A stretch of DNA of 36,122 bases, from assembly GCA_004102785.1 (NCBI GenBank), contig SCEJ01000032.1, positions 1 to 36,122 of the forward strand. The letters run 5' to 3'. The notes below the pieces were generated by a model. That model searched no databases. It was given only the letters and a program-made list of their open reading frames with translations, and was not told the origin of the DNA. Within the stretch, counting starts at the first letter, position 1. Each line of letters opens with the position of its first letter. Position numbers and translations under genes: made by a program. Positions 2,300-25,054 of the stretch are shown in pieces. This DNA is from Muribaculaceae bacterium Isolate-013 (NCI). Its GTDB lineage: Bacteria > Bacteroidota > Bacteroidia > Bacteroidales > Muribaculaceae.

Positions 2300-2935
2300 A
2301 TGGTGTACAAAATCCTGCATATAGCGCGTGACGTGCGTATCGCCATAGATGAGAACAAAACGAGCGAACAACTGATAGCGGATGAGGATATTGACACCCT
2401 ATCGTTGAACGACATTGTCCGCTCCAAGATTGTCGAAGCAGTGCTCCGTGTGGTGACCGAAGCACCCACGCACCTGCTTGACGGCGGTCAGCCATTCGGC
2501 GATGCAATCTTTTGGCGTAGCAAAGGTTCGGGTTGGACACTCCTGCCCGAAGATTTCATGCGCCTCTTAATCTTCAAAATGAGCGATTGGGAGCGACCTG
2601 TGTATGAGCCAATCACAGCCGCCGACCCTCAGTATCAACTGCAATTCTCACGCTACAAAGGACTGCGAGGCAATCCGCAGAAACCAGTAGTGGCAATTGT
2701 CAGCCGTGCCGAGGGTCGTGCGCTGGAGCTATTCTCCTGCAAGGACGCGACCGCAACAGTAGAGCAAGCCGTCTATATCCCCCTGCCGAGGGTAGATTGT
2801 GATGGCGGTATTGAAATCCCGGAGCGTTGCTATATGTCCGTGGTCTATCAAGCCGCCTCGCTTGTGCTTGCCACTATCGGTCAAGGCGACCTATCCTCAA
2901 TGATGTCAGACCTTAGCAAACAACTTTTAGTATGA
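2300..2935 (+). CDS. Hypothetical virion assembly protein (connector-like)
   Basis: The 211-residue product has no signal peptide or membrane segment. It begins with a beta-like segment (MVYKILHIARDVRIAID), then an acidic and aliphatic region (DIDTLSLNDIVRSKIVEAV) and a helical C-terminus. Its stop overlaps the start of the giant tail gene by 4 bp (ATGA), indicating translational coupling. Position between the capsid gene and the tail protein suggests a head-tail connector, tail terminator or base-plate role, but no motif proves it. I do not recognise the family with certainty. Confidence 0.55.
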   Translation: MVYKILHIARDVRIAIDENKTSEQLIADEDIDTLSLNDIVRSKIVEAVLRVVTEAPTHLLDGGQPFGDAIFWRSKGSGWTLLPEDFMRLLIFKMSDWERPVYEPITAADPQYQLQFSRYKGLRGNPQKPVVAIVSRAEGRALELFSCKDATATVEQAVYIPLPRVDCDGGIEIPERCYMSVVYQAASLVLATIGQGDLSSMMSDLSKQLLV

Positions 2936-5900
2936 GTCAGATAAAGACAACCGAAATTGAGGGTGACGTTGCGATTGGCAGACACGTCACCGCAGGCGGA
3001 AATGCGACCATACAGGGAAATGCGACCGTTAAGAAGAATCTCAAAATTGAGGGTTGGCTTGATGCACGAAACATCAAAGGCCCCAACAAGGGAATCTTCC
3101 TTGACGTGACAAAACTCCGTGAGGCATATCCGCTACCGCATGATGGTTGGTGGGCATTAATCGGCAACACTCTCCCGGCCCCCTTGTACATCGCTGACGG
3201 CGGTGCGTGGGTGGCAACCGGGGAAAGCGCAGGCAACCCGACCATTGACAGCCAACAATACAATGAAGCCGTTGCGGCACTTGACGCTGAATTGAAAGCA
3301 CTGGCTACCGATGTTTCAGCCAACAAGCAGAGCATTGACCAAATCCGCACTCAGATAGACACTATCGGCAGTTCGGTCAATACGCTCACGACCGATGTGT
3401 CCGGCCTGAAAACTCGCGTGACCAATGCTGAGACAAGCATTCAGAGCATCAACAACAGCAAGGGCAAGGCTAACGGCCTGGCCTCTCTTGACGCAAACGG
3501 CAAAGTTCCGTCAGCGCAGCTTCCCGGCTTCGTTGATGATGTCGTAGAGTTCAATGCCATAGTCTCCGACATAACACCGCTTGCACAATCAGCGAACAAA
3601 AAATCAACTGATGCCGGTTGTATGGTGGTTTATGACAGCGACCGCAACCGATTTATTCTTGCAGTGTCGCATTTGGCCATACCCGATGAACAGCGTACAC
3701 AATGGGGAGAGCAGATATTGCGCCCGATAAAGACACTCAACACTCCTGCCACCGCCACCGCAGAGAGCGTTGAGGCGTTGCCTCTATTGAACGTTGTGGA
3801 TTACTGGGAACTTACGGACGGAACAGCCTCACTCATCACATCAAAATTCACCTACTACAACAACTGGCTTGACGGTGGCTCCTTTGGTGAAGTTGACGCA
3901 AAAGGTAGAATCCCCGAAGGTGGCAAGGTGTATATTTCTACCTCAGATAATAAAACCTATCGTTGGAGTGGCACACAACTTGTCATCATTGGTAATGACC
4001 TTGCACTGGGTCGTACAGCAAACACGGCGTTCCCCGGCGATGAAGGAGCGCAGTTGCAGGAAAATCTAAAAAACACCGATAACCGACTGTACGACACAGC
4101 CAACCGATTGCGCAACTTAGGGATTCTGCTTTGTGACGGTCAATGGGATGGAACCGGCACTACACCTAAAAGTGGTGTATGGCTTTGTCCGAATGAAGAG
4201 GGCGGTTGGTATTTCCGCAGTTTTGGCAACACCAATTTTTATGACCTCCCTGAAGAAGAATATAACTCTGACATGACGTATAATTCCGGCTGTCTATATC
4301 GTATGGCAGACGGACTATACCGCATTATCAACGATAAACTGACAATGGTCGGAGGGGCTTCAGTCGGCAATACGTTCAACCTCACATCGGAAATACCCAC
4401 AAGCGACCCCGACAAGTTGTTCTATCAATTGAACGACCCGACCGACACCAAGTATTATGCTCCAGCGATAGTCTATGAGCAGGGAAAGGCAGGTTTCGGC
4501 TTGCAGATTACCTTTGCCGTTGCTCACGGTGCGTGGAAGATATACCAGTATGTCGGCGCGACACTTGAAAAGGAAGATGTTTTGAGCAGTGAAAACTGGC
4601 TCGATCTCGCAGGCATGAGCGCAGGCGCAGAAGCCATCGTGAATGTCAATGAGGTGTGCGAAGATAAAGACTACACCATGTCGCTTGCCATACAGGCACT
4701 CATTGACCTGCGCGACACCACCGGGGTAAACTATCTCAAATCCGGACTTGTCATAACCTACCGCAGGGATTCTTCCAAAACGCCCCATGCATGGGAGACA
4801 AAGCAGTTCCGTGGGCAGGTGCAGGATATATCCGCGACAAACGGCGATGACCTATGGCCAGACTTCGGCGGTGGCGGTGGCTCTACTTTTGAACTCGGCA
4901 ACGAGCCAGAGGTAAACGGCACTAAAGCATTGTCAACCGGCGGCGCGTACGATATGGAACAACGCTCATTCGGAGGCTTGCAGATAGAACCCGCCCCATC
5001 GGATTATATCATACAAGCCGTAACTAAAGCAGGCGAACCTCTCGGCGATTCCGTGAAGATACCCAAGAGCAACGGCGGTGGCGGTCAGAGCGGAAGCACA
5101 CTCACCATCTACTGCGACTCTGCCGTATGGGGCGCGTATGGTGGTAAAATCGTTTTGTCGGCCGCCATCAAGAGCGTAAGTTATGACGGCGAAGATGAGG
5201 TACTGGGAACAATCCGCTCACTGAGTATCATCGACCCGACCACCAATATAGAGTTGTGGAGTGAGGTTGTCAATCAGCCGTCCTCAACATCAGCCAATGA
5301 CCTCAAATTTGAATTTGACTTTACCGAGTTCATAACCGGGGCATCGAGCAAGGACTACAAAATCAAAGCCACTGACGCGGACGGCAACGAGCGCACTCGT
5401 GTAATCAGCGTTACCGCCGTTGACGTGACGTGTACCTGTGTGCAGGCACTTAACTACTCAGCCGCCACCGCTCTTGAAGCAGGAGGACGCGAGAAGAGCC
5501 TGCCGATGTATAAGTTTGAAAACAACGTCAGCACCAAACAGGGCATTCTCGTAACCACTGAAATGTTCTACAATGGGGAATGGCGTACCCTCGGCACAGC
5601 GACCGTTACCGACCAGTACAGTCACAACATAAGCATCAACCCCAACAACGTGTTCGGCAATTCCGAACAACTGACGCACGGCGCATACCCCCTGCGCATT
5701 CAAGGCAAAGACATTGCTTCGGGTGTGACAGGCAATACAATCTACACAGCCGTGATGTGCGTTGACGCAAACAACAGCACGCCGATTGTAGTCATGCGAT
5801 ACGATGACCGCAACGAGGGTAAAGTGCGCTTGTATGATTCCATCGCGCTTGATGTCGCAGCTTACACTCCGGGCAAAACACGCACAGCCATTGAGGTAAT

Positions 5901-8900
5901 GATTGACGGACATATAGCCACTACCGCCAACTGCGAAACCAGTCAGACGCTCAATGTAACGAAGCAGATTCAAGGTTATGCCTCGGACGGAAGCAAGAGT
6001 TTTGACGTGTACGCACAGAGCGGAACATCAAAGTCCTTAACCGTCACACTGACCGTTGAGGGTTCAGCAATAGACGCTGAGGTCAAAGAGGGTGCATTGT
6101 TCGCCTTTGACTTCTCCACCCGAAACAACAGCGAGACCGACCACACCATTGAGGACAACGGCTACTCCATGAACGTAAGCGGCAGCAACTGGAACTCCAA
6201 CGGCTTTGTGTCGGTACTGGGAGAGAATGTTCTGCGTATCGCCGAGAATGTAAAAGCGGAGATACCTTATGCACCGTTCTCATCATCAGCCCTTGAAACG
6301 AGCGGAGCCGCAATCCAGTTGGCTTTCTCAACCAAGAGCATCAAGGACAAGGATGCCATGCTCTGCGAGTGCTACGACCCAGCCGCAGGTGTCGGCTTCT
6401 ATATCCGAGGCAACGAGGTAGTGCTTACGGTCCTCAACGGAACTCCGAAGCGTCAGCGCGTAGGGTTCAAGTGCGGAGAGAAAGTAACAGTTGCCATTGT
6501 TGTAGAGCCGGGCAGCAAGTATGTCACCTACAAAGCCTCAGAAGCATCGAGCGGAACAAATTACTCATTTGTCAAACTCTATGTGAATGGCGAGGAGTGT
6601 GCTTCTATCGGCTATCAGCCGGGAACGAGCGCACTGCGTCAGAACAGGACAATCACGTTCAACTCCGAGAACGGCGATTTCAACCTCAACTACATCATGG
6701 CCTACAACTCCTATATGGAATGGTTGCAGGCATTCCGCAACTACCTTTGCAAGTTGAGCGATGTCCGCGCCATGATTGCGGAGTATGACAAAGAGAATGT
6801 ACTGGATACGACAGGCAAGCCGTCCATGAGCCTTATGGCGGCCAAAGGTATACCTTACTATGTGATTGTCGCCGACCAGACCACATTCAATAATTTCGAC
6901 TATGCTCTGAACGGCGGTACATCAACAAGCGACCAGTTTGCCTGCACGCTGTACTACTTCAACCCACAGCATCCGGAAGTAAACTTCAAGGCTGTGAATG
7001 TGCTTTGGCGCAGGCAGGGAACGACTTCGGCACAGCGACCCATTAAGAACGACCGCTTCAACTTCAACAAGAAGAACAAGACCACAGGACTTAAAGCGAC
7101 CGTCACCCTGCTCAATCCCGATGACAGCACCGAACTTGGACTCAACGCAATCAAGGCTGCTGCTGACCGAAAGGTGTTTTGCGCTGAGACTGGTAACTTT
7201 ATTGACGTGGTTACTGTCAAAGTCGATTATTCCGACAGTTCCAATGCCAACGACTGCGGCGTGTGCGATATGATGAACGCCACATTCCGCTCTCTCGGCT
7301 CGTCATACATGACCCCGGCGCAAAGAGCCTTTGACGGGCGTCAGATTCTTTCCAACGGAGACGTTATCACGGGTCGTCAGATGGACCATTCCACAAAGAA
7401 CCACCCGATAGCCTGCTTCCGCGCCACGACCGACACCTTGCAGGACGCATGGTTTCATGCCAAGGGCAACTGGAAAGAGGACAAGGGAGAGCAGACCGCC
7501 CTCGGCTTCAAGGATACACCCGGCTATAACAAAGGCTGTCTCAACTACGGAGACTTTGTGGAATACTTCGGCACACCCGATGAAACCCTCGCGCAAACCG
7601 AGGCTCGTTTCAAGGCAGACCCCGAAACAAATACAGAGGCCGCCCAAAAGAATGTGTATCTCATATCACAGTATTGCGGACGCGACTATGCTATCTACCG
7701 CTACAAGAACGGCGCATGGACACGTTCGACTGGCTCAATGAAGCAGGTTGACGGCATGTGGGTTGTGACCGGCGATGTGCTTAACCCGGTGAGTGGTTAC
7801 GAACTACTGCAATATGCAGGTATGGACTGGTGGCAGGGTGTAGCGACTATTGAAGACATGATGAAGCCGTCAACACAGATTTCATCATGGGTTCGCAAAC
7901 TCGGACTTGCGGCTACGGAATATCCTGCATGGACATACTACTTTGAGTGCATGATTGACGATGACCAACTCCAAGAGGATTTGGCACTCGGCAAGAAAGT
8001 ACCCTACGACCTCTTCAATATGCTTCGTTTCTTCAACTCCTGCGACTACTCCAAAGTCAACGGGTGGGAGAAGATATGGAGAGAGAACGCCTACCGCTAT
8101 ATGTCGCTTGAGAGCGCAATGGCATACACCGCCTTTACTGACTATCTCGCGGCTGTTGACCAACGAGCCAAGAATATGCAGCCTATGTTCTTCTTGGAGG
8201 ACGGCTGTTCGGTAGAGAACGGCGTTTACTCCGGCTACCGAAATATGGAGCCAACCCGAATGTATCTTAACAAGGTATATGACTGTGACACCTGCAACGG
8301 CGCAGACAATGACGGCGGCCGAGACATAGACGCGGAGGTAGACCCCAACAAGATGACTGATGAAGCTACCGGTTATACCAATCCCTACATGGGTTACGGC
8401 TCGGTACTCTTCAACAACATGGACCGTCAGCAGGAGTGCTGGAACAGCAACGACCTCGGCACGACCACCATATCACTGAAGAGTGTTGTAAACCGAATGC
8501 GAAATCAGACTGCGCAGATTGACGGCAAGACAATCGTTCCGTTCTCGCCTGACGGCGCGTTATATTTCTTTGTGGAGAAGCGACTGATGTTCTGGCCGAA
8601 AGTCATCTCTTCCTATGACGGGGAGCGTAAGTACATAGATAATACCGGGATAGCCAATCAGCCGTATTTCTATGCACTGCACGGCCTGGGATTGACCTCC
8701 TTACCTCGCTTCATAGAGCAACGATGGGCAATCCGTGACGGCTATTATCAGACAGGCGACTTCTTTACCAATCCATTGAGCGGACGTGTGTCTGCCATCA
8801 AAGCCGATTCTAAAATCTACATCACCGCAGCAGCTCCGGGATATTTCGGAATCGGTAATGACGCAAGCGGTCAGTTGTCGGAATCCGTCTTTTTGGAAGC

Positions 8901-11355
8901 AGGACAGACCCACGCGTTCACGCTTTTTGCTCATGACGCAGGCGCGTTGCTCTACATCTATCAGACCGGGCGCATGAGCATGATTGACCTTTCGGAAATG
9001 TCGCTTGCATTCCATTTTGATGATTTGAGCAAGATGCAGCTTGCCGAAGAAATCATATTGGGTGGAGAGAAGCACACCGCGAATACTGCGCTCAACGGTT
9101 TCAATTCACTTGGCAACTTGACGCTCGGAGATATGCCGTTCCTGCGCCGACTTGACGTGAGCAACACAACGGCAACGAGCGTGGACGCAAAAGGCTGTCC
9201 GCGTATCGAGGCAATCATAGCCAACAACACGCCTCTGACAAACTGCGACCTCGCGCAGACCGCGCCTATTGAAACGCTGACACTTCCTGCAAGCGTCACG
9301 AAACTGGAGCTTGTGAACCTGCCGAGGCTCACATATCCCGGCGGTCTAACTCTTGAAAGCGTCAATGGCATCAACCGCCTATGGGTGGAGGGGTGCGACT
9401 TCGTGGACGTAGAGGGTCTTGTAATGAACATAGCGCAGGCAGGAGCAATCCGCGAGGTGCGTATTCCCGACATCAACATGACGGCAAGCGTGTCGGTACT
9501 GCGTCAGTTGCGCAGGACCGGAGCCATAGGTCTTGACGCAACCGGCAAGGCATGCGAAGAGAGCGGTCAGTGTTCGGGTATCACAGGCCGCTGGATACTG
9601 TCGGAACTGATAGAAGATGAAGATGTGGACGGCAATGCAGGTCTTACTACCCTTGACCGCTATTTCCCCGAACTCACGCTCATCAACTCCCAGTTCTCCA
9701 TGCTGAAGATTGATGACATCATCAGCGGAGATTTCTGCGAGAGATACAGCAACCCAGAAAACGAGACAGGCGCGGAGTATAACAAAGCGTTTGTTCCAAG
9801 CGGTCACACCCTAAAAATCAAGCAGGGTACGCACGCCTATAAGTGTACATTCAACCCCAAACTCAACCAAATGGAAGGCGTTCAGTTGAGCGACACGGAT
9901 TTCGGATATCTCAATTCGGGTGAGAGTTTCGACAACGCCGACCAAGCCGGAGAGGGTTTTGACATCTTCCACCATCTCCCACACCACTGGTATAAGGGTG
10001 TGAACGACTACAAGAACCAAAAGAAATACATCTTGTATTCTACCACTGATGGCGAACCGCTATCAACAGTAAACAAGAGCTTGAAAGCAATGTTATCGGA
10101 ACTGCTCTATGCAGAGAACACAGGCGTATATGCAGATGAAGCACAAGCAGGTGAAATGATAGATGACAGCATTATCGCCACTGCTTCCAACACCAATGCC
10201 TATCGCATGGACGTTGAGGGTATGAAGCAGGTACGTTGGCCCGGACTGAACCACGCACGCCTCGGTGCTGTGTTCACTGACGCAGACGGACGGATTGTAG
10301 GTTCATTCATCATGCAGGTAAGCCATACCTACTTTGATTTCTCGATCGGCAACTATATCTTCTGCGATGTGCCGAGCGGAGCGAAGTGGATGTACTTTAC
10401 TTCATACCGCGATATCGGTGACATAATGTGCCTGGCAGTTGACAGCGCACATATTGAAGCGATCGAACCCGAATGGACGGAACACACCGTAGGCGAAAAC
10501 GACAGCCTTGTCGGTACATATCCGATAACAATTGACGGACTGAAGATGCCTCGCAGTCTTTCGGGTGCAGTTCGTTCCAAGAAAGGCAACGGCACATCTT
10601 CAACGTCATCAGAGTGGGCGTATGATTCGGATGGCAATCCGACCGAAACGCCAGTCGGAACAATCAACTACACAGCAAAGGATTTCCAAAACAGCACTCG
10701 CAGACGTGGCCCCGGCTACCAGTTGCAGGACTATGAGCAGCATAAGGAAATCAGCAATCTTTGGTGGGCTTTGGCCGGAACGACAAATGAGCAAGCAGTT
10801 GTGGGTAACGGCGCACATGACGCAACCCTAAATATTCGAGACAGCATAGGCATGGCGGATACTGTGTATGTAGGTAATGCCATGAACTCCATACTTGGTC
10901 TTAAACACTATGTCGGCTGTGATTCTGAATGGATGGATTACATCGCCTGCAACGTGACAAGCTATGCTGAGTTCTATAAGAACCGCTGTCTTGACAATAA
11001 TAACAACGCCCCGATTGACTATAAGGCGCACATCTATGACCCCGTGACAAAAACGGAACGAGTTGTGCAGACCGTAACTGGCAGCGGTCATTGCGTTGTG
11101 CGTGTTGTTCATGGCGCGAAATGTGACATTCTTGCAAGTAAGGTTCATCAGACCGACACAAGCAAATATACGACCCACTATGCGGCAGGACACTGGCTAC
11201 CCGGCTCACGCGGCCGTGTGGTTTTGCGGTCGGGCAACTATTCGTTTGCGGACAGCGGCCTCGCTTATGCGCACGCGAGCAACGCTTCATCGGGCTCGGG
11301 CACGTACTGCGGTGGTCGGCTCGCCTTCCGCGGAAAATTCGTCATAGTCGGATAG
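2932..11355 (+). CDS. Giant tail / receptor-binding protein, DGR target
   Basis: At 2807 residues this is the longest gene here. Residues 1-100 resemble N-termini of Bacteroidales phage tail proteins (GNATIQGNATVKKNLKIEG, then a GGAWVATG loop). Residues 107-173 form a coiled coil. A collar-like segment (GLASLDANGKVPSAQLPGF) follows at about 182-200. Residues 1054-1260 look like a LamG/concanavalin-type carbohydrate-binding fold. Residues 2060-2195 carry leucine-rich-repeat-like units. Residues 2680-2807 look like the C-type-lectin-like terminal domain of DGR targets, ending GGRLAFRGKF. Residues 2762-2799 are encoded by the variable repeat. The long middle part (about 1300-2050) is unassigned. 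It is probably a tail fibre or spike that binds a surface glycan or protein, with specificity retuned by the downstream DGR. Identity as the DGR target is firm; domain calls before that are tentative. Confidence 0.85.
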   Translation: MSQIKTTEIEGDVAIGRHVTAGGNATIQGNATVKKNLKIEGWLDARNIKGPNKGIFLDVTKLREAYPLPHDGWWALIGNTLPAPLYIADGGAWVATGESAGNPTIDSQQYNEAVAALDAELKALATDVSANKQSIDQIRTQIDTIGSSVNTLTTDVSGLKTRVTNAETSIQSINNSKGKANGLASLDANGKVPSAQLPGFVDDVVEFNAIVSDITPLAQSANKKSTDAGCMVVYDSDRNRFILAVSHLAIPDEQRTQWGEQILRPIKTLNTPATATAESVEALPLLNVVDYWELTDGTASLITSKFTYYNNWLDGGSFGEVDAKGRIPEGGKVYISTSDNKTYRWSGTQLVIIGNDLALGRTANTAFPGDEGAQLQENLKNTDNRLYDTANRLRNLGILLCDGQWDGTGTTPKSGVWLCPNEEGGWYFRSFGNTNFYDLPEEEYNSDMTYNSGCLYRMADGLYRIINDKLTMVGGASVGNTFNLTSEIPTSDPDKLFYQLNDPTDTKYYAPAIVYEQGKAGFGLQITFAVAHGAWKIYQYVGATLEKEDVLSSENWLDLAGMSAGAEAIVNVNEVCEDKDYTMSLAIQALIDLRDTTGVNYLKSGLVITYRRDSSKTPHAWETKQFRGQVQDISATNGDDLWPDFGGGGGSTFELGNEPEVNGTKALSTGGAYDMEQRSFGGLQIEPAPSDYIIQAVTKAGEPLGDSVKIPKSNGGGGQSGSTLTIYCDSAVWGAYGGKIVLSAAIKSVSYDGEDEVLGTIRSLSIIDPTTNIELWSEVVNQPSSTSANDLKFEFDFTEFITGASSKDYKIKATDADGNERTRVISVTAVDVTCTCVQALNYSAATALEAGGREKSLPMYKFENNVSTKQGILVTTEMFYNGEWRTLGTATVTDQYSHNISINPNNVFGNSEQLTHGAYPLRIQGKDIASGVTGNTIYTAVMCVDANNSTPIVVMRYDDRNEGKVRLYDSIALDVAAYTPGKTRTAIEVMIDGHIATTANCETSQTLNVTKQIQGYASDGSKSFDVYAQSGTSKSLTVTLTVEGSAIDAEVKEGALFAFDFSTRNNSETDHTIEDNGYSMNVSGSNWNSNGFVSVLGENVLRIAENVKAEIPYAPFSSSALETSGAAIQLAFSTKSIKDKDAMLCECYDPAAGVGFYIRGNEVVLTVLNGTPKRQRVGFKCGEKVTVAIVVEPGSKYVTYKASEASSGTNYSFVKLYVNGEECASIGYQPGTSALRQNRTITFNSENGDFNLNYIMAYNSYMEWLQAFRNYLCKLSDVRAMIAEYDKENVLDTTGKPSMSLMAAKGIPYYVIVADQTTFNNFDYALNGGTSTSDQFACTLYYFNPQHPEVNFKAVNVLWRRQGTTSAQRPIKNDRFNFNKKNKTTGLKATVTLLNPDDSTELGLNAIKAAADRKVFCAETGNFIDVVTVKVDYSDSSNANDCGVCDMMNATFRSLGSSYMTPAQRAFDGRQILSNGDVITGRQMDHSTKNHPIACFRATTDTLQDAWFHAKGNWKEDKGEQTALGFKDTPGYNKGCLNYGDFVEYFGTPDETLAQTEARFKADPETNTEAAQKNVYLISQYCGRDYAIYRYKNGAWTRSTGSMKQVDGMWVVTGDVLNPVSGYELLQYAGMDWWQGVATIEDMMKPSTQISSWVRKLGLAATEYPAWTYYFECMIDDDQLQEDLALGKKVPYDLFNMLRFFNSCDYSKVNGWEKIWRENAYRYMSLESAMAYTAFTDYLAAVDQRAKNMQPMFFLEDGCSVENGVYSGYRNMEPTRMYLNKVYDCDTCNGADNDGGRDIDAEVDPNKMTDEATGYTNPYMGYGSVLFNNMDRQQECWNSNDLGTTTISLKSVVNRMRNQTAQIDGKTIVPFSPDGALYFFVEKRLMFWPKVISSYDGERKYIDNTGIANQPYFYALHGLGLTSLPRFIEQRWAIRDGYYQTGDFFTNPLSGRVSAIKADSKIYITAAAPGYFGIGNDASGQLSESVFLEAGQTHAFTLFAHDAGALLYIYQTGRMSMIDLSEMSLAFHFDDLSKMQLAEEIILGGEKHTANTALNGFNSLGNLTLGDMPFLRRLDVSNTTATSVDAKGCPRIEAIIANNTPLTNCDLAQTAPIETLTLPASVTKLELVNLPRLTYPGGLTLESVNGINRLWVEGCDFVDVEGLVMNIAQAGAIREVRIPDINMTASVSVLRQLRRTGAIGLDATGKACEESGQCSGITGRWILSELIEDEDVDGNAGLTTLDRYFPELTLINSQFSMLKIDDIISGDFCERYSNPENETGAEYNKAFVPSGHTLKIKQGTHAYKCTFNPKLNQMEGVQLSDTDFGYLNSGESFDNADQAGEGFDIFHHLPHHWYKGVNDYKNQKKYILYSTTDGEPLSTVNKSLKAMLSELLYAENTGVYADEAQAGEMIDDSIIATASNTNAYRMDVEGMKQVRWPGLNHARLGAVFTDADGRIVGSFIMQVSHTYFDFSIGNYIFCDVPSGAKWMYFTSYRDIGDIMCLAVDSAHIEAIEPEWTEHTVGENDSLVGTYPITIDGLKMPRSLSGAVRSKKGNGTSSTSSEWAYDSDGNPTETPVGTINYTAKDFQNSTRRRGPGYQLQDYEQHKEISNLWWALAGTTNEQAVVGNGAHDATLNIRDSIGMADTVYVGNAMNSILGLKHYVGCDSEWMDYIACNVTSYAEFYKNRCLDNNNNAPIDYKAHIYDPVTKTERVVQTVTGSGHCVVRVVHGAKCDILASKVHQTDTSKYTTHYAAGHWLPGSRGRVVLRSGNYSFADSGLAYAHASNASSGSGTYCGGRLAFRGKFVIVG
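11213..11328 (+). repeat. DGR variable repeat (VR)
   Basis: This 116-bp segment at the 3' end of the giant tail gene aligns without gaps to 11499-11614. They differ at 15 positions, and at every one the downstream copy has A. Ten codons change: residues 2770, 2772, 2774, 2781, 2783, 2788, 2790, 2792, 2793 and 2798. Asn is replaced by Tyr, Phe, Asp, His, Ser, Gly, Gly and Tyr, one Tyr by Cys and one Lys by Ala. The first base past the match (11329 versus 11615) is C versus T. Eight fixed residues and the stop follow the VR. Confidence 0.97.
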
Positions 11356-11375
11356 CGTAAGCGGACACGAATCAC

Positions 11376-11442
11376 GAAAAGCGCAGAGGGAGAACCGACC
11401 ATCGGGAGGTTGCTCCCTCTGCGCTTTTCTCGCGTAAGCGAG
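11376..11442 (+). terminator. Long stem-loop between VR and TR (terminator or DGR cruciform)
   Basis: A perfect 17-bp inverted repeat begins GAAAAGCGCAGAGG (11376-11392) and pairs with 11413-11429. The 20-nt loop can pair further (AACC with GGTT). It is followed at once by a second hairpin, CTCGC-GTAA-GCGAG, at 11429-11442. The 9-bp word GCGTAAGCG occurs at 11355-11363 and again at 11432-11440. It sits 21 bp past the stop codon of the tail gene. It may end tail mRNA. Hairpins just downstream of the VR are also known to aid retrohoming in the Bordetella phage DGR, so a dual role is possible. Confidence 0.75.
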
Positions 11443-11463
11443 TCGAGTTCGGAGATTTTTTCG

Positions 11464-11471
11464 TAACTTTG
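11464..11471 (+). promoter_or_regulatory. Bacteroidetes-type -7 promoter for template RNA and RT
   Basis: TAACTTTG fits the Bacteroidetes -7 consensus TAnnTTTG. Transcription would begin near 11478, about 20 nt before the template repeat, giving one RNA that carries the template and then the RT message. The -33 element is weak. Confidence 0.6.
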
Positions 11472-11498
11472 CACCTTGAAAGGCAGATAACCCCGCGC

Positions 11499-11614
11499 GC
11501 CGTGTGGTTTTGCGGTCGGGCAACAATTCGAATGCGAACAGCGGCCTCGCTTATGCGAACGCGAACAACGCTTCATCGAACTCGAACACGAACTACGGTG
11601 GTCGGCTCAAATTC
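11499..11614 (+). repeat. DGR template repeat (TR)
   Basis: The 116-bp non-coding template contains 28 adenines, of which 15 are substituted in the VR copy; no C, G or T differs. Its asparagine codons (mostly AAC) sit at the varied positions, the usual DGR design that gives many amino acids and no stop codons when A is randomised. It lies 170 bp after the VR and 93 bp before the RT start. It should be transcribed as part of an RNA used by the RT as primer and template. Confidence 0.97.
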
Positions 11615-11707
11615 TGAATGGTTAGAACAATCGGATGACCCTGCACGCCTGCGAGACAGGCAAGGCATTTCTCCGAGGGGTTTGCGCCTCGGCAACAGCA
11701 TAACAAT

Positions 11708-13192
11708 ATGGAAAGCCGGAAGAACATTATAACCAAACGTGGAGAGGGGCAATGCCTCTCTCCACAGGACCGGAAGGCGGTCACTGACATAGCAACATTC
11801 ATGGAGTTGACCGAGGATTGCCCCTCGGTCAACTATCCTTTATGCAACCTTATCCCAGAGATAATAGCCGAAGACAATATCATATCTTCGTTCAACCGCG
11901 TGATAAAAAACCTGCGCCAATCGGCCACCGATGCCGAGAAGAAAGATTGTGTTGTGATAGACGGCAACGAGTACACACGCAGGCAAGCACGGTATATACG
12001 GCAAAAGGATGCCATCGTAGCGTATCTCAAACAGTCAATCAAGAGCGGAGATTTCCGCATAAGCAAACTGACATCGTTTGCGACCAAAGACGGTCCGAAA
12101 ATGAGGATAGTCCAAGCTCCAATTGTTGTAGAACGCATGGGAAGCAATAGCATAATGGAGGTTATTGAGAAACGTCTTGCTCCAGTATTGATAAAAAGCA
12201 CTGCCGCCTCTATAAAAGGACGCGGGCCACATGGTCTGTTCCATGAGATACAAGATGCGATAAAGGTTAACCCTAATCTAAAATACTACTATCAGACAGA
12301 TTATCAAGGCTACTATGACAACATCATCCATGATAGGATGATTACCGTGATAGAACGGTACATATCAGACCCAGTGCTGTTACCAATACTGCATAATTTT
12401 GTGAAAGCCCTGCACCCCGACGGCGATGTCGGAATCAGCAAAGGGCTACGCTCATCGCAGTTTTTCGGCAACTTGTATCTCAACGACCTCGACCACGCCA
12501 TGATAGAGAAACACGGTGCAGCTTACTATTTCAGATTTTGTGACGATACGTTTATACTGGCAGAAAGTAAAAAGGAGTTATGGAGATTAAGGGAGTGCTT
12601 ACATGAAGAGAGTGCCAAACTTGGACTGACAATAAAGTCCAGTGAAAGGATTGCGCCCATATCGGCAGGCATGGACGCACTCGGCTATGTGAATTTCGGA
12701 GACTATGCCCGGATACGCAGACGCACAAAGCAGAACGCGGCCCGTAAACTGGCAAAGATAAAGTCTCGAAAACGCAGACAAGAAATCATCGGCTCATTCA
12801 AAGGCATGGCTTGCCATGCAGATTGTAAGTATATTTTTCACTTAATCACAGGTAAACGTATGAAAAAGTTTTCTGAACTGGGAGTGACCTACACTCCTGC
12901 AGACGGGAAGAAACGCTTTCCCGGAAAGGTGATGCGCTTGGGCGCAATCCAAAACAAAGCGTTAGAGATACACGATTATGAGGTAGGCATGAACACATCA
13001 CAGGGCGATGACCGATACCTTGTTTCTTTCAAAGACAAGGCTACCGGCGAGTGGGGCAAGTTCTTCACCGCGAGCGAAGAGATGAAGAATATCCTTGACC
13101 AAATCTCGGACATCGAGGACGGCTTTCCCTTTGAGACCACCATCGTTAGCGAAATCTTTGACGGCAACAAGCAAAAGTTCTCGTTTACCTGA
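11708..13192 (+). CDS. DGR reverse transcriptase
   Basis: The 494-residue product carries the RT palm and fingers motifs in order. PKMRIVQAPIVVERMG gives the early motif. TDYQGYYDN carries catalytic D198. KGLRSSQFFGNLYL (K245-L258) is the DGR-type motif 4 with the SQ pair at S250-Q251. FCDD (277-280) supplies the two catalytic aspartates; the usual DGR form is Y-M/V-DD. A basic thumb region (340-360) follows. Residues from about 385 to 494 form an extra C-terminal domain (NKALEIHDYEVGMNTSQGDD, later GFPFETTIVSE) beyond the usual 350-420-residue length. No avd accessory gene is adjacent. The start at 11708 is the first ATG after the template. The enzyme makes adenine-mutagenised cDNA of the TR for insertion at the VR. 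Confidence 0.95.
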   Translation: MESRKNIITKRGEGQCLSPQDRKAVTDIATFMELTEDCPSVNYPLCNLIPEIIAEDNIISSFNRVIKNLRQSATDAEKKDCVVIDGNEYTRRQARYIRQKDAIVAYLKQSIKSGDFRISKLTSFATKDGPKMRIVQAPIVVERMGSNSIMEVIEKRLAPVLIKSTAASIKGRGPHGLFHEIQDAIKVNPNLKYYYQTDYQGYYDNIIHDRMITVIERYISDPVLLPILHNFVKALHPDGDVGISKGLRSSQFFGNLYLNDLDHAMIEKHGAAYYFRFCDDTFILAESKKELWRLRECLHEESAKLGLTIKSSERIAPISAGMDALGYVNFGDYARIRRRTKQNAARKLAKIKSRKRRQEIIGSFKGMACHADCKYIFHLITGKRMKKFSELGVTYTPADGKKRFPGKVMRLGAIQNKALEIHDYEVGMNTSQGDDRYLVSFKDKATGEWGKFFTASEEMKNILDQISDIEDGFPFETTIVSEIFDGNKQKFSFT

Positions 13193-13276: not shown

Positions 13277-13768
13277 ATGGAAAAGATTTATGGCACAACC
13301 ATACGGCAGGACGGACTGCAACGTATAGGACGCGATACATGGGTGCTTTTCTTTGGACTTTATGAGACAACGGACGGAGGCACATACGAATATCGCCATA
13401 CGTTCAAGCACCGCCCCACACTTGACGAGATAAAGGCAGTCATCAACGCGCAGTTGTCTGCGGACGCTGACGAGCGCAAGCGCAACGGGTTCTCATGGCA
13501 GGGCGTACCGGTCCGCTACGATGAGGAAGCGGAGCGCAACATAACCGGGCTATCGGTAAAGATACCGAGGCTTGGAGCTGCGATGTTTCCTCTGCAATTC
13601 AAACTGGGCGATTACCCGGACGGTAGTCCTGCTTTCTATGAGTTCAAGGACGCAGAAGAATTTGAGAGTTTCACGGACGCTCTTCTGTTGTTCTCGCAGG
13701 AATGCTATGCGCAGGCGTGGCAAGCCAAAGCGGAAATAGACTGGAATAAATTTACTGACGCGCTATGA
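13277..13768 (+). CDS. DUF4376-like phage tail-associated protein
   Basis: The product has 163 residues from the ATG at 13277. A TTG 24 bp upstream is also in frame, but it falls on the promoter element and is unlikely. The order of segments recalls DUF4376 proteins of phage tails: a dipping helix (DEIKAVINAQLSADADERKR), the NGFSWQGVPVRYDEEAERN segment, a hydrophobic beta stretch, and a helical end rich in Ala, Tyr and Phe (FSQECYAQAWQAKAEIDW). Such proteins usually lie next to tail fibres and are thought to be virion or fibre-assembly proteins. It is not an Avd homologue: Avd is a short all-helical bundle. It overlaps the next gene by 4 bp. Confidence 0.6.
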   Translation: MEKIYGTTIRQDGLQRIGRDTWVLFFGLYETTDGGTYEYRHTFKHRPTLDEIKAVINAQLSADADERKRNGFSWQGVPVRYDEEAERNITGLSVKIPRLGAAMFPLQFKLGDYPDGSPAFYEFKDAEEFESFTDALLLFSQECYAQAWQAKAEIDWNKFTDAL

Positions 13769-20811: not shown

Positions 20812-21147
20812 TTAGAAAAGCGAGAGTTGCTGAACGTCCGGGATTTCTTGGCTATGCGCGGTCGGCGCACCATATTCTCGTGCCGTCTCGCAGAACATTT
20901 TGCGGAAGATATGATAGAGGCAGGCGACAACGATAGAGTTTCCTGCAAGTTTATAGAGTTGTGAATTGGATATGCCTGCGTTGAGCAATCGGTTTATATG
21001 GTGTTCGGGTACGTCCATAAGCCGGAAACATTCGCGCGGAGTAAGTTTGCGTATCCAGTATTCGATGACGGCAAAGTTATTGTCCTGCCACTTTGATGTA
21101 GTCATAGCCGGGGCAATATCAAAGAAACCGCCTTTGGCGTATCCGTG
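20812..21147 (-). pseudogene. DNA cytosine-5 methyltransferase, C-terminal remnant
   Basis: About 111 in-frame residues remain. They hold the final motifs of a C5 methyltransferase: an AP(A/T)-MTTSKWQDNNF segment, then RKLTPRECFRLMDV (motif IX type) and SNSQLYKLAGNSIVV (motif X), ending QQLSLF. The catalytic PCQ loop, the cofactor motifs and the recognition domain are all absent. The frame begins abruptly at about 21147, where it meets the start of an unrelated gene in another frame. The only internal start is the ATG at 21105, giving 97 residues that cannot methylate DNA. It is a deletion remnant, possibly of a phage self-protection enzyme. Confidence 0.85.
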
Positions 21148-21220
21148 ACCACGCTGATATTTTCATGAGTGCGAAGTTGGGGAAGTTATGCCCATCAACG
21201 TCAACTATACCTATGTTCAT
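21119..21220 (-). pseudogene. 5' fragment of a phage radical-SAM-like gene
   Basis: From the ATG at 21220 the frame reads MNIGIVDVDGHNFPNFALMK and then ISAW. This opening is familiar from Bacteroidales phage proteins annotated as radical SAM or B12-binding-like. After about 24 residues the sequence crosses into methyltransferase DNA out of frame and ends at a TGA at 21119-21121 (33 residues in all). The ATG overlaps the stop of the gene upstream, the typical operon coupling, so the 5' end is original. Family naming is from memory of the motif. Confidence 0.6.
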
Positions 21221-21423
21221 GTGATAATGAATTGAATATTAAAATTAAACTCCCGGCAGAGCCGGACTACTTGAATGTGTTTGTATGGCTCTTCGCCATA
21301 GGGAATGAAGATGACACGCTGTTTGGTGTCAGCCTCAATTCCTTTATGGCGCAGCTTATAGAGCAGGTTGGCACAGCGTTTCTTTGCCTTGCAAAGCGCC
21401 GCGGGCGATAAGGGGAATCTCAT
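21217..21423 (-). CDS. Small hypothetical phage protein
   Basis: The product has 68 residues from the ATG at 21423, starting MRFPLSPAALCKAKKRCANL. It is basic in its first half (KAKKRC, YKLRHKG) with a beta-like second half (RVIFIPYGEEPYKHIQ). It overlaps the 3' end of the gene upstream by about 70 bp in another frame. Its stop overlaps the ATG of the truncated gene downstream (ATGA). The frame is open further up to 21495, but that part is the shadow of the upstream gene. Function is unknown. Confidence 0.6.
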   Translation of the reverse strand: MRFPLSPAALCKAKKRCANLLYKLRHKGIEADTKQRVIFIPYGEEPYKHIQVVRLCREFNFNIQFIIT

Positions 21424-21613
21424 AAGCAGGATAGCGATTAACCGAGGCACTGCGCTGAATGAGAGAGCCATCAGCGACCAAAGAGTCGAGTGCATGGCCG
21501 ACCATAGAGTTTATCTCATTGCGGAGCGCGTAATCGGGCGCGATGTGTTTATGCCTCTTGTCTGCGATTATTTCCTTGACAAGAACGAGTGCGAGTTGTT
21601 TTGCGATAGTCAT
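21356..21613 (-). CDS. Small hypothetical protein, possible winged-helix
   Basis: The product has 85 residues and starts MTIAKQLALVLVKEIIADKR. Helix-rich sequence continues to HALDSLVADGSLIQRSASVN, followed by a short beta hairpin (RYPAYEIPL), an order compatible with a small winged-helix DNA-binding fold. It lies 2 bp after the gene upstream and overlaps the next gene. No family is recognised; a regulatory role is only a guess. Confidence 0.55.
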   Translation of the reverse strand: MTIAKQLALVLVKEIIADKRHKHIAPDYALRNEINSMVGHALDSLVADGSLIQRSASVNRYPAYEIPLIARGALQGKETLCQPAL

Positions 21614-21615
21614 GG

Positions 21616-21897
21616 CTATTTAGATGTGTGGAGGGTTTCACGTTTGAGTATGAGGTAAGCTGCGAAACTATCTTCGCCTGCGCAGGTTGCTATTTCCCAA
21701 CCATCAGCACCCAGCTTGCAGAGTTCGGCGATGCACTCGTCCATTTTGCTGTATGAGTAGCGGTAGCGCATATACTCGCAGGTTATGTGATAATCTCCGT
21801 GCCTTTTGCGCTCAATGCGATTGATGAGCAGGACAATAATAGTGATTATTACTGCCGAAATGATTACGGAAGCGAAGTGTACAAGTAATTCAATCAT
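21616..21897 (-). CDS. Single-pass membrane protein
   Basis: The product has 93 residues from the ATG at 21897. A Shine-Dalgarno-like AAAGGAG sits just upstream, which decides this start over the open frame extending to 22032. Residues 2-25 form a membrane helix (SVIISAVIITIIVLLIN) followed by basic residues. The soluble part (CIAELCKLGADGWEIAT) resembles small DUF4177-type domains found in phage and host proteins. It overlaps the upstream gene by 8 bp. Role is unknown. Confidence 0.65.
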   Translation of the reverse strand: MIELLVHFASVIISAVIITIIVLLINRIERKRHGDYHITCEYMRYRYSYSKMDECIAELCKLGADGWEIATCAGEDSFAAYLILKRETLHTSK

Positions 21898-22273
21898 TGT
21901 TATCTCCTTTCTCATCAATCTTGGTAAGCAGGGCATCGGCGTAACCCATTGCGTTACGAGCAACAATCTCGAAAAGCTTGGGATACGGGGGATTTTGTGC
22001 CACATCAATGTAAGCCTGCATAGTTCGTTCATTGCTCAATATCCCCTGCATGGCTGCTGTGGCAACTCTCAACCGGTCCTCACGCTGACAAGTGATATAT
22101 CCATAACCAGTGCCTTCAAGTTGCTCCTTGATATGTTCGGCACGTTGTTTGGCGGCTCGGCGGTCTATGCGAGTGAGCCGGGCGACACACTCCTTACAGC
22201 GGTGCTTGTAGGATTTTGACATTTCGTGCTGTTCTTTCCACTGACCGCAAATTCCGCATTGCTGTTTGCTCAT
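21890..22273 (-). CDS. Zinc-ribbon-like hypothetical protein
   Basis: The product has 127 residues. An N-terminal pair of CxxC motifs (CGIC at 6-9 and CKEC at 26-29) within a basic segment suggests a small zinc-binding domain. The remainder is helical, with the segment NPPYPKLFEIVARNAMGYAD near the end. Its ATG overlaps the stop of the lipoprotein gene upstream. It could bind nucleic acid or act as a small regulator, but I know no assigned function. Confidence 0.65.
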   Translation of the reverse strand: MSKQQCGICGQWKEQHEMSKSYKHRCKECVARLTRIDRRAAKQRAEHIKEQLEGTGYGYITCQREDRLRVATAAMQGILSNERTMQAYIDVAQNPPYPKLFEIVARNAMGYADALLTKIDEKGDNND

Positions 22274-22509
22274 TCCTCACCTCCTTCCTTATGGCACGGG
22301 CAGTCGGGGTCGTGGGTGATGGATACCGATGACATTCTGCCTCCCGTATCATACTTGATATAATAATGACCGTCAAAATAGATTCGACTCATGCAATGGT
22401 GGTTGCGTGGTATTTGAGGTGCAGGCTGTGTTTGTGTTTTTGAGTCTGCGCATCCGCTCAGGCACACGGCGCAGAGGACGGCGGCGAGGATGGTTGTAAG
22501 GTGTTTCAT
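22270..22509 (-). CDS. Small lipoprotein
   Basis: The product has 79 residues with a lipoprotein signal peptide: a Lys start, a hydrophobic core (ILAAVLCAVCLSG) and a lipobox LSGC with Cys20 as the lipidation site. The mature part contains paired His and Cys residues (NHHC, DPDCPCH). It would sit in the envelope after export. Overlaps of 4 bp at both ends place it firmly in the operon. Early-operon lipoproteins may act in exclusion of other phages, but that is inference. Confidence 0.75.
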   Translation of the reverse strand: MKHLTTILAAVLCAVCLSGCADSKTQTQPAPQIPRNHHCMSRIYFDGHYYIKYDTGGRMSSVSITHDPDCPCHKEGGEE

Positions 22510-22730
22510 ATTGATTTGGATATTCGGTTAAACAATTCATTCAACTCTTGCCATCCCTCGCTTTTGCTCACCTTGCGCCAACTGCGATACTTCTTACGCC
22601 ATTCACAAGGGAGTTTCGCTCGTTTGGCGGCAGTCATTAGCTGTGCCCCAGTGTAGGGGAAATCAAGTCTGCTCAACTCTTGATACTCGACTTTGGCTTT
22701 GAGTATCTTCATTGCTATTCTTGCTTTCAT
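22506..22730 (-). CDS. Small basic hypothetical protein
   Basis: The product has 74 residues and is rich in Lys, Arg and Trp, with a central stretch AAKRAKLPCEWRKKYRSWRK. It is probably helical and may bind nucleic acid. It overlaps genes on both sides by 4 bp. No family is recognised. Confidence 0.6.
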   Translation of the reverse strand: MKARIAMKILKAKVEYQELSRLDFPYTGAQLMTAAKRAKLPCEWRKKYRSWRKVSKSEGWQELNELFNRISKSI

Positions 22731-22807
22731 TTCTTCTTCGGTTTAATGGTGATGGAGACTTCGAGAGGTTTGGACTCCCATGTGCCTCGGAATTTAATTG
22801 TTCTCAT
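22727..22807 (-). CDS. Very small coupled gene (26 residues)
   Basis: From the ATG at 22807 the frame reads MRTIKFRGTWESKPLEVSIT and ends IKPKKK at a TGA at 22727-22729. Both its start and its stop form ATGA overlaps with the neighbouring genes, which is the strongest evidence that it is real. It is a short beta-like, basic peptide of unknown role. Confidence 0.65.
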   Translation of the reverse strand: MRTIKFRGTWESKPLEVSITIKPKKK

Positions 22808-23181
22808 TTCTCGTTGATTTTGTCAAGAAGTTCCTGCGCTTCGCTCCGTGCGAAGTCCTTGTCATCTTCATAAGGGAATTCCTTGATGAGACAGTAACAG
22901 ATGCTCTCAATGTGTTCGCCTGCATAGGTGGACTTGCGCACATAGACTTTCATGAACACCCGGCAAGTGGAGTTGCTATCGTCCTCCTCAATCTCAAAGT
23001 GGCGGTCATACTTTGAGGAGTTCTCAATGCGGTCCAGTGAACGAGAGAGTTTGTCTCGCTCATCCTTGGTCTTGTTGAGGAGGTTCTGACGGCGAGTGCT
23101 GATGACAGCAGAGCGACCGAACAGGAACGCGAAGATTGCCAAGAGGCAGATTGCTGTTGTTGTTACGATTGTCATTGTCAT
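22804..23181 (-). CDS. Membrane-anchored hypothetical protein
   Basis: The product has 125 residues. An N-terminal membrane helix (IVTTTAICLLAIFAFLFG) leads to a basic coiled-coil-like part (LLNKTKDERDKLSRSLDRIE) and a mixed C-terminal domain with acidic residues. A second Met at residue 3 is an equal start candidate. It follows the helicase loader gene by 19 bp and overlaps the 26-residue gene. Function is unknown. Confidence 0.65.
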   Translation of the reverse strand: MTMTIVTTTAICLLAIFAFLFGRSAVISTRRQNLLNKTKDERDKLSRSLDRIENSSKYDRHFEIEEDDSNSTCRVFMKVYVRKSTYAGEHIESICYCLIKEFPYEDDKDFARSEAQELLDKINEK

Positions 23182-23200
23182 TTTGATTTCTGATTGATTG

Positions 23201-24034
23201 TTATCTCCGACTTGTGCCAGTCAGTTCGATTATGTTATATGATTTGAGACGATCGACCGTGCGTCCATAGACATCAGCAAATTCTTTGGCAAGCTGCTGT
23301 ACAGACAGATTGGTCGTAAGGTGTCCACGGATATTCCACTGCGTCCATATCTCATATCGTGCATGGAGGAACTCTGTTACCAGTTTCTTGCCGTCCTGCC
23401 CGAAGAATGATTGTGTCTGCAATCCGATATCGTTGAGGCAGACATTAGACGGGCGGCACCCATCAAATGTGTTATCTTCCTTGACGCTGGAGCGGTCGTT
23501 GTAGGTGTATCGGTTGAGGTTGTTGTTGATGGTGTAGTAATTGACCATTTCAGTAACCGATACATTGAAAAATGAATTGGGGTTATTGGTCCGGCGCAGA
23601 TATTCGGAGAAGAGCTGCATAAGGAAAGTCTTGCCTACGCCCTTGTCGCCACGTATAAGCAGAGGCTTTGCAAGTTTAAAGCGTTTGTCGGGAAATATCT
23701 GCTCGGCGAGGGAACAGTTGTTGAAGTAGTACAACAGAAAGATTATTATCTTATTGTTGTTATCATCAATCACGAACTTGCGCCGTTGTGGGGCAAGAAC
23801 AATATCCTCAGCGACACGGCAGAGGAAATCCCAGTGACATTTGAAAATGTCGGGGTCGGTCAAATCGGGGAATGACTTGCTTGTCCTGCTTATATCAAGG
23901 CGCACTTGATTGAGAGCCTTGTCTATCTTCAGTTTCTCATCGCGCAAAGCGTCAAGTCGGCGTTTCTCCATGACCTTAGCTACGGCTTCGGGAGGAAGCC
24001 CTGTGGTATTTTCTGTTACATAACTCATAATCAT
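23201..24034 (-). CDS. DnaC/IstB-like helicase loader ATPase
   Basis: The 277-residue product is an AAA+ type ATPase. The Walker A motif is GDKGVGKT (129-136). A Walker B-like stretch ends CLNDIG. An arginine-finger candidate follows in YGRTVDRLKSYN near the C-terminus. The first 60 residues are helical and charged, as in loaders that contact the helicase. Such proteins load the replicative helicase at a phage origin; the host DnaB is the likely partner, since no phage DnaB is seen here. It overlaps the DUF6291 gene by 4 bp, so the pair is likely a replication initiation module. Confidence 0.85.
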   Translation of the reverse strand: MIMSYVTENTTGLPPEAVAKVMEKRRLDALRDEKLKIDKALNQVRLDISRTSKSFPDLTDPDIFKCHWDFLCRVAEDIVLAPQRRKFVIDDNNNKIIIFLLYYFNNCSLAEQIFPDKRFKLAKPLLIRGDKGVGKTFLMQLFSEYLRRTNNPNSFFNVSVTEMVNYYTINNNLNRYTYNDRSSVKEDNTFDGCRPSNVCLNDIGLQTQSFFGQDGKKLVTEFLHARYEIWTQWNIRGHLTTNLSVQQLAKEFADVYGRTVDRLKSYNIIELTGTSRR

Positions 24035-24618
24035 TGTTCTTCATAATCCATACCTCCGAAATCATCACCCACTTCCGGGAAAGGCACTGAAGAGTTATCG
24101 GGTATGGCCTGGGGTATTGTTGTTTGCTGTTGGGGATAAGCCTTTGTCATCCAGTAGCGCAAATGACTCTGACAATCTACGAAACTATCATGATGTTCCT
24201 TGCCCTTGCGTGCCTTGTCATCGTTACAGCGATCGAGGAAACGAGAGAGCCGCTTATCATACTCTTCCGCAGTGATGTTGAAATCCTCGCAGATAGTTAT
24301 GCGCCATTTCTCGTCATTTCTCATCTGCTCAACTTCCTGTTCGTAGGTAAGGACGTATGCAGATTCAGCCGAAGCCACCTGCTTCTTGGTGCGCTTGCGC
24401 CCACCTTTCTTGCCATTCTCAAACCGAGCGGTGTTCACGTCAATGTTAGGCTTTATCAGCGTGAACATACCCTTTGCGACTTCGGAGAGGCTCTTCGGTA
24501 TCTTGCCGAACAGGGCATACTCGCAGATGGCAGGATATATTTCAGCCTGCACATCTGACGGCATACACCTTATAGCCTCGTAGAAGCTGCGGTAGAATAT
24601 GAAACTCTCACGGTCCAT
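24031..24618 (-). CDS. DUF6291-type replication-associated protein
   Basis: The product has 195 residues. Its start (ESFIFYRSFYEAIR, then AEIYPAICEYALFG) is the signature of DUF6291 proteins in Bacteroidales phages. A basic segment (GKKGGRKRTKK) separates it from a C-terminal domain with WRITICEDFNITAEEYDKRL, similar to the helical end domains of DnaD-like replisome organisers. I infer a DnaD-like role: binding origin DNA and bringing in the loader encoded next. It lies 2 bp after the nuclease gene. Confidence 0.75.
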   Translation of the reverse strand: MDRESFIFYRSFYEAIRCMPSDVQAEIYPAICEYALFGKIPKSLSEVAKGMFTLIKPNIDVNTARFENGKKGGRKRTKKQVASAESAYVLTYEQEVEQMRNDEKWRITICEDFNITAEEYDKRLSRFLDRCNDDKARKGKEHHDSFVDCQSHLRYWMTKAYPQQQTTIPQAIPDNSSVPFPEVGDDFGGMDYEEQ

Positions 24619-24620
24619 AA

Positions 24621-25034
24621 TCAGACTTCTTTTATGCGGATACCGTGCCGAAAGAGCATAAGTTTCCGCTTGATTATATATTCCTTTGTTCTCACGCCTT
24701 TGGTGTCCTCTACGATTGTCTGCCCAGTCTCGTTGTCGGTATAGACAAAGTCGGCAATGTATCGGCAGGCGCGCTCGATCAGTTTTGGTTTTGCAATGCG
24801 TGAAGTCGCGGTGTCCACACTATACTGGGCAGGGATAAGTTCAAAGGGCACTTGCTCACGGAGATTGGAGATAACCCCGGCGCGTTGCCACAACTTGAGT
24901 TGAACAGCGCGATTATGCTCCTTGCGAGAGGCGTGTTCGCCGACACGTTGCGCACCATATTTGTTGCGCTTCTTCGGCTCATACGCAGGGTTTCTCCGAC
25001 CTCCGTTAGCAAATGGATTAGCACATTTAGCCAT
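24621..25034 (-). CDS. DUF1064-type nuclease-like protein
   Basis: The product has 137 residues from the ATG at 25034; in-frame starts at 25109 and 25121 are also possible. The segment KRNKYGAQRVGEHASRKEHN, then ADFVYTDNETGQ and VEDTKGVRTKEY, gives the DUF1064 pattern. The acidic and Lys residues fit a PD-(D/E)XK-like nuclease active site, with D, E-D and K in order. Such phage genes probably process replication or recombination intermediates. I prefer 25034 because residues encoded upstream of it belong by pattern to the tail of DUF4494 proteins, not to DUF1064. The frame joins without a stop to DUF4494 sequence upstream. Confidence 0.75.
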   Translation of the reverse strand: MAKCANPFANGGRRNPAYEPKKRNKYGAQRVGEHASRKEHNRAVQLKLWQRAGVISNLREQVPFELIPAQYSVDTATSRIAKPKLIERACRYIADFVYTDNETGQTIVEDTKGVRTKEYIIKRKLMLFRHGIRIKEV

Positions 25035-25054
25035 TATCTGTGGATAGTTTAGCT

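Follow-up and report, generated by a model that had tools for sequence, protein, structure and literature searches.

The DNA analysed here, called the window throughout, is the whole 36,122-nt stretch of contig SCEJ01000032.1 (positions 1 to 36,122, forward strand) of Muribaculaceae bacterium Isolate-013 (NCI), assembly GCA_004102785.1. It contains a diversity-generating retroelement (DGR) made up of a variable repeat (VR) at the end of a tail-protein gene, a template repeat (TR) and a reverse transcriptase (RT). We put at about 95% the probability that this is a recently active DGR without a recognisable Avd, carried by a Bacteroidales (Duncaniella-type) prophage and editing the tip of the tail protein in the manner proposed below. 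The first-pass annotation of this DNA had described a complete DGR aimed at a very long tail protein, and the VR/TR pair, the DGR-type RT and the adenine-only variation between relatives bear that description out.

Recent activity of the retroelement

The window contig belongs to a 3.3-Mb assembly and carries phage genes. The culture-collection strain Duncaniella muris DSM 103720 has a near-identical prophage, and with it a close copy of the element whose RT is 100% identical. The two VRs differ at 15 of the 25 TR-adenine sites and at none of the 85 other VR sites (Fisher p 2.8e-12), against 1 difference in 11,377 aligned positions outside the VR. Over 31,085 aligned bases, 46 positions differ (3 gaps), and 15 of these fall in the 110-bp VR. 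The first-pass annotation had named variation not concentrated at TR-adenine sites as the outcome that would count against it, and these figures came out for a DGR. That annotation also called the element formerly active; this is too weak, since the VR variation arose within almost unchanged genomes. Within window 21145-25938 the alignment passes over about 2 kb near 21150 that D. muris alone has, and the window's own 25470-25937 (about 470 bp) is unmatched in the D. muris prophage.

The same distribution of differences is seen in other relatives: We gathered 75 loci, 60 of which, the window included, have a detected VR/TR pair; most of the other 15 (L009, L012, L021, L022, L024, L026, L034, L043, L053, L057, L066, L067, L068, L077 and L078) start at or close to the RT. 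In 22 close pairs of loci, defined by an identical TR and at most 15 differences in 300 flanking positions, differences occur at 183 of 560 TR-adenine sites, 4 of 1867 other VR sites and 18 of 6600 positions of the 300-bp flanks. These pairs are not independent (four loci supply six of them), their loci had also passed the adenine-mismatch filter given below, and L044 and L060 were skipped for their short detected pairs. A second DGR of the window's assembly (contig C53) differs from its D. muris counterpart at 13 of 28 adenine sites, 0 of 91 other VR sites and 97 of 3822 positions outside.

Within the window, VR (11213-11328) and TR (11499-11614) align without gaps over 116 bp, with 15 mismatches, every one at a TR adenine: 15 of the 28 TR adenines are altered in VR and none of the 88 C, G or T positions, the same figures as in the first-pass annotation. 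Three of the mismatches (11323-11325; TR AAA, VR GCC) are a fixed boundary difference. Because GCC is fixed there in the VR of all 60 loci, the truly diversified set is 12 of 25 adenines, within 11213-11322, and the 15 of 28 holds as a count of differences only. The altered codons specify residues 2770 to 2793 of the target, and 2798 at the boundary, inside its last 38 residues (the last 40 had been given earlier). Before the boundary nine codons are altered, eight Asn and one Tyr on the TR side, and VR has Tyr, Phe, Asp, His, Ser, Gly, Gly, Tyr and Cys in their place. Across the 54 distinct VR/TR pairs, VR departs from TR at 802 of 1574 A positions and 13 of 4661 others, a tally biased by the acceptance filter (at least 80% of mismatches at A); we therefore relied on the VR-to-VR comparisons.

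A search of the TR against all contigs of the assembly, one of the checks suggested at first pass, returned only the TR itself, its own VR and two stretches (77% and 74% identity) that fall on the TRs of two further DGRs in the assembly. A 26-nt repeat (D2, 10912-10937 and 11601-11626, 81%) was taken as chance, and an exact-pattern scan of viral contigs gave no match. The promoter that the first-pass annotation assigned to the DGR has a candidate in TAACTTTG, which we take to match the Bacteroides-type -7 consensus; 35 of the 60 loci have a box of this kind within the 80 nt before TR (chance about 3% each).

The tip of the target is predicted to adopt a C-type-lectin fold, and the best structural matches are solved DGR variable proteins, in agreement with the lectin fold suggested at first pass for the C-terminal part. 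Searches by sequence gave no PDB profile match at E <= 1, no Pfam match common to several family members and no match to Mtd of Bordetella phage BPP-1 in a profile comparison, so the fold call rests on the predicted structure.

Several observations weigh against a recently active, Avd-less element. The VRs are identical in 9 of the 22 close pairs, and activity is read from assemblies, not from reads. D. muris is without the hairpin expected to help homing, a 57-bp stretch having gone between two AAGCG copies, and 25 of the 60 loci have no -7 box upstream of TR. BPP-1 needs Avd, and a search of the window with the BPP-1 Avd gave nothing significant (best E 0.74). The identical VRs and the hairpin loss would also suit a relic, in which VR diversified once and the present differences are old alleles exchanged by phage recombination. 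We consider a relic very improbable: the window and D. muris prophages share an intact, identical RT frame, their upstream flanks show 0 of 300 differences beside the divergent VRs, and such a history would require allele exchange limited to 110 bp, with untouched flanks, in several pairs. The comparison of assemblies instead indicates that the DGR has been active recently.

Table 1 Features of the window and of related loci. Positions are those of the window unless a locus or contig is named.
Feature	Position	Strand	Basis or remark
DGR target, 2807-aa tail protein (phrog_14959)	2932..11355	+	ORF; PHROG match residues 32-2806, 2706 bits
C-type-lectin fold domain, C-terminus of target, VR inside	10501..11343	+	predicted structure
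VR, diversified part	11213..11322	+	25 TR-adenine sites, 12 altered relative to TR
GCCTTC boundary box, candidate initiation-of-mutagenic-homing (IMH) site	11323..11328	+	fixed in VR, absent from TR
Hairpin downstream of VR, 17-bp perfect arms, core AGAGGGAG...CTCCCTCT	11376..11429	.	possible cruciform and/or terminator
Bacteroides-type -7 box TAACTTTG, candidate promoter of TR-RT	11464..11471	+	consensus as we take it to be; 35/60 loci
TR	11499..11614	+	VR/TR alignment
RT-3 RNA (RF03068), structured 3' part of presumed template RNA	11629..11773	+	cmscan; overlaps RT codons 1-22
DGR RT, 494 aa, C-terminal extension (residues 385-493, phrog_19665)	11708..13192	+	PF00078, phrog_1423 1.1e-87, motifs
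DUF4376 protein after RT	13277..13768	+	PF14301 E 1.3e-9; 67/69 loci
Loci with HigBA-like pair in VR-TR interval	L010, L016-L019, L030, L058-L060, L071, L072
Fused TR-like copies	L009 11777-11892; L024 near 1538-1651; L026 4755-4883; L066 near 4858-4972; L068 4623-4750
Further RTs of the assembly	contigs C319 (6566-7903; 77586-78824), C53 (42433-43485)		loci L120, L121, L122

A candidate homing boundary

The boundary codon that is GCC in every VR is GCC in none of the 60 TRs, where ACA, AAA, AAC, ACC, GAA or AAT stands opposite it. The combination of AAA in TR and GCC in VR is shared by the window and the five copies closest to it. On this comparison the boundary differences between VR and TR are not products of mutagenesis; they form a fixed 3'-end difference of the IMH/IMH* type, for which a role in homing is a candidate. 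The codon is part of a six-base box, GCCTTC, which forms the VR boundary in 51 of 51 distinct segments of the 60 loci.

We compared codon usage in the 330-residue tip at the 54 conserved columns, those in which at least 90% of 34 sequences, not mutually independent, share an amino acid having more than one codon. Codon entropy is zero at only two of them, the Ala (GCC, 34/34) and the Phe (TTC, 34/34) of the box. The next-lowest diversity is at a Ser inside the TR-templated part (TCG, 31/32), and the neighbouring conserved Arg, Leu and Gly columns use three codons each. In the targets as a whole Ala-Phe is written GCCTTC in 80 of 277 cases, or 20 of 217 once the 60 boundary copies are subtracted. 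The single-codon columns, together with the usage for Ala and Phe elsewhere, point to a constraint on DNA or RNA beyond that of the protein alone.

The box might be kept not for homing but for the mRNA or for the protein, where its Ala-Phe ends the lectin fold. Both residues are invariant there, so the protein constrains the site as well. We nevertheless think this explanation unlikely, as four codons appear in each of the two further conserved Ala columns and only one at each of the boundary Ala and Phe, Ala-Phe is seldom written GCCTTC elsewhere in the targets, and the box is missing from TR; a role in the mRNA is nonetheless conceivable. We favour the box as a candidate homing site, comparable to the IMH of BPP-1.

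The box was also looked for in a further scan of 35 VR/TR pair rows, which were not dereplicated and seven of which are contigs already counted. It lies at the VR edge in 18 rows (L084 is probably from the same genome as L073). The ten rows without it are L152, which has GCTTTC, L154 and two reverse-strand pairs, in which no such VR boundary is visible, and six distant DGRs (L088-L092 and L102; RT 23-32% identical). None of the 35 scanned TRs has GCCTTC near the corresponding edge. The candidate makes the discrimination between VR and TR testable by synonymous change.

Downstream of the box, the window's hairpin lies 48 bp after VR and has 17-bp arms and a 20-nt loop; in PMC3240598, the hairpin associated with the BPP-1 IMH lies 4-34 bp after VR and has a stem of 7-10 bp and a 4-nt GRNA loop. 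Of 46 distinct loci, 33 (30 in the strict form) have the core, GAG(G/T)GAG with its complement, no more than 170 bp after VR, and the core matches 52 times in all 792,667 bases of the loci, post-VR copies included. It was not found after the VR of D. muris or of hankyphage (Bacteroides phage p00, BK010646). Relative to the window, L013 and L014 carry the loop in inverted orientation.

Presumed template RNA, reverse transcriptase and Avd

The sequence after TR matches the Rfam family RT-3 RNA (RF03068) above its gathering score and over its full length (53.2 bits, gathering 40.5, E 5e-12, model positions 1-148 of 148). The match begins 14 nt after TR and extends into the RT gene, and RT-3 RNA is present in 22 of 23 other sources scanned, L054 being the miss. 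RNAalifold predicts 36 pairs, 15 of which have both partners changed in one or more sequences, a count that leans towards the fold because the fold was predicted on the same alignment. Fourteen loci have a spacer ending in GACCGGAAGGC; the alignment comprised 11 of them, without three near copies and without 24 dereplicated loci that have a shorter 3' part. A hairpin inside the window's RT frame has both-side changes in 6 of its 11 pairs, several of the six being broken in other rows. RT-3 RNA is known as an RNA near reverse transcriptases. We place it here as the 3' part of a presumed DGR template RNA, a placement not found in the literature searched, although the link may be in print in the RT-3 source paper; the matching text of PMC7657543 makes no link to DGRs.

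The RT and target reading frames are as noted at first pass. The RT has a conserved LRSSQ motif (SQ) and the DD pair, and it matches BPP-1 Brt at E 4.6e-20; NCBIfam matches (group II, Drt3a, retron) are far under their cut-offs, and a sequence search also led to solved RT structures. Its conserved C-terminal extension could matter in the apparent absence of Avd. A start at Met32 rather than Met1 was rejected for this sub-clade: BS-TP4 (L010) has no ATG at that position and its frame is maintained. The same assembly encodes three more RTs of this type, each with RT-3 RNA, and VR/TR pairs were found in two of these loci and not in L121.

These elements suggest a mechanism in which a transcript would begin just upstream of TR and carry TR and then the structured RT-3 RNA. 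The RT would bind this RNA and make a TR cDNA with random bases opposite adenines, and this cDNA would take the place of the 110-bp VR in the final part of the tail-protein gene. Both the GCCTTC box and the hairpin downstream of it may mark the recipient site and protect TR. The outcome would be a new set of residues on the C-type-lectin tip, presumably altering what the phage can attach to.

The first-pass annotation reported no adjacent avd gene, and the window contig indeed has no match to PF05635, two members of which score above cut-off elsewhere in the assembly. A candidate for a functional replacement of Avd is the DUF4376 protein, whose gene follows the RT in 67 of the 69 loci giving an ORF (of the other six of the 75, L028, L065, L066 and L067 had a short RT frame and were not used, and L070 and L071 gave no ORF); in L033 and L035 a different ORF comes first. 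When DUF4376 was used as the query, 37 of 44 loci (28 of 35 among loci new to the set) had an RT immediately before it, and three of the seven misses are close to a contig end. The 44 come from 48 loci, of which L173, L174, L175 and L177 were omitted as contigs already in the set; nine of the 44 (L034, L137-L143, L151) are contigs first found through their RT.

The idea of an Avd substitute looked strong at first and was weakened by occurrences of the gene without an RT despite 4 kb of upstream sequence (L149, L157, L159 and L166), which show that it is not linked to DGRs only. In L166 (3-4399) DUF4376 comes immediately after a related, hankyphage-type target gene and no RT is present, which may represent the same tail module in a DGR-free state; in L149, L157 and L159 the gene stands among other ORFs not assigned to families. 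A tail role fits these cases better. A replacement for Avd is accordingly doubtful, and DUF4376 is probably a tail-associated gene, judging by its neighbourhoods.

Known relatives and the interval between the repeats

The window DGR belongs to the Bacteroidales phage DGR family that includes hankyphage. As in the window, the hankyphage gene order is target, VR, TR, RT and a DUF4376-type gene, the repeats are of 116 bp with their own mismatches at A only (13/13), an RT-3 RNA lies 3' of TR (146.6 bits) and the VR boundary codon is GCC. The RTs are 39% identical, and the target C-termini are related (E 4e-18) with tips 25% identical. Hankyphage differs in its host, in an RT-3 RNA that stops before the annotated RT start, where the window's overlaps the RT, and in having no hairpin core after VR. 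This closest known relative is the subject of PMC6199706 and PMC12135933, the latter describing a transposable phage with a DGR reported active in culture. An Avd label appears in a figure legend of PMC12135933 and a small ORF of similar size to Avd in a passage of PMC6199706; the gene meant could not be told from either text.

The BPP-1 DGR (Mtd, Avd, Brt) is of the same mechanism class, with 18 of 22 mismatches of its annotated repeats at adenines, a homologous RT and, as in the window, a lectin-fold target, the tip of which shows no sequence relation to the window's by profile comparison. It has an Avd, which we take to be bbp7 from its place in the cassette, whereas none is detectable in the window, and there is no GCCTTC in its VR or the following 60 bp. 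Roux et al. 2021 (PMC8144416) sort over 30,000 DGRs into six clades, three of them mostly of phages, and describe broad activity and annotated VR regions systematically of lectin fold.

Bacteroides phages BS-TP4 (PQ571277) and BKO1-TP3 (PQ571269) have a similar gene order on both sides of the DGR and RTs 64-65% identical to the window's, and they differ from it between the repeats. BS-TP4 has a HigBA-like toxin-antitoxin (TA) pair between VR and TR, which the window does not; its record names the pair RelE and a regulator. Such pairs occur in 11 of the 60 loci having both repeats. By Pfam, the first protein is Gp49-like (PF05973) in four loci scanned and the second HTH_3 in two. On the RT tree, TA rows fall inside the larger clade of the window and, in separate branches, at L058 and L060. 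Eight identical rows had been dropped from the tree beforehand and 13 rows were labelled (10 TA, 3 FUSED), the 41 others being ignored. The TA label changes three times, but all 500 shuffles were as low, and this gives no count of gains. A pair in this position could stabilise the cassette against VR-TR deletion. A TA pair inside a DGR was not found in the literature searched, coverage of which was incomplete.

In five loci the target runs straight into a single TR-like copy before the RT, and a separate VR and TR were not found. One of them is the sequenced phage BKO1-TP3 (L009), which has one TR-like copy at the target end and no separate TR, unlike the window, and which is nearest on the RT tree to L072, a locus with a TA pair. 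A recombination deletion or an assembly collapse would each explain such fused repeats.

Taken jointly, these features suggest a tentative scheme for this clade of Bacteroidales phage DGRs in which RT-3 RNA would be the 3' module of the template RNA, replacing the Avd-dependent handling of BPP-1, GCCTTC would admit the cDNA into VR and shield TR from overwriting, and HigBA-like pairs would punish VR-TR recombination, as perhaps seen in BKO1-TP3. We hold this scheme at somewhat less than even odds; that the tree gives no count of gains counts slightly against it. Taken by itself, the window element is well formed and ordinary for a family already known, and we add near-isogenic evidence of recent activity. 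What weighs more is the comparison, which suggests what an Rfam RNA otherwise known to us only from the neighbourhood of reverse transcriptases may do.

The target is a tail protein as read from its gene neighbourhood and fold, phrog_14959 carrying no function itself. Other parts of its first-pass description fared less well. The LamG-like and leucine-rich-like parts gave no Pfam match at E <= 1; the places meant are, as we read that annotation, about residues 1100-1300 and 2150-2260. The length is not unusual, as one PHROG spans nearly the whole protein and targets of about 2245 to 2645 aa are found in the three relatives whose annotated record has the target complete. For the coiled-coil part there are weak matches near residues 104-189, which we read as a coiled coil.

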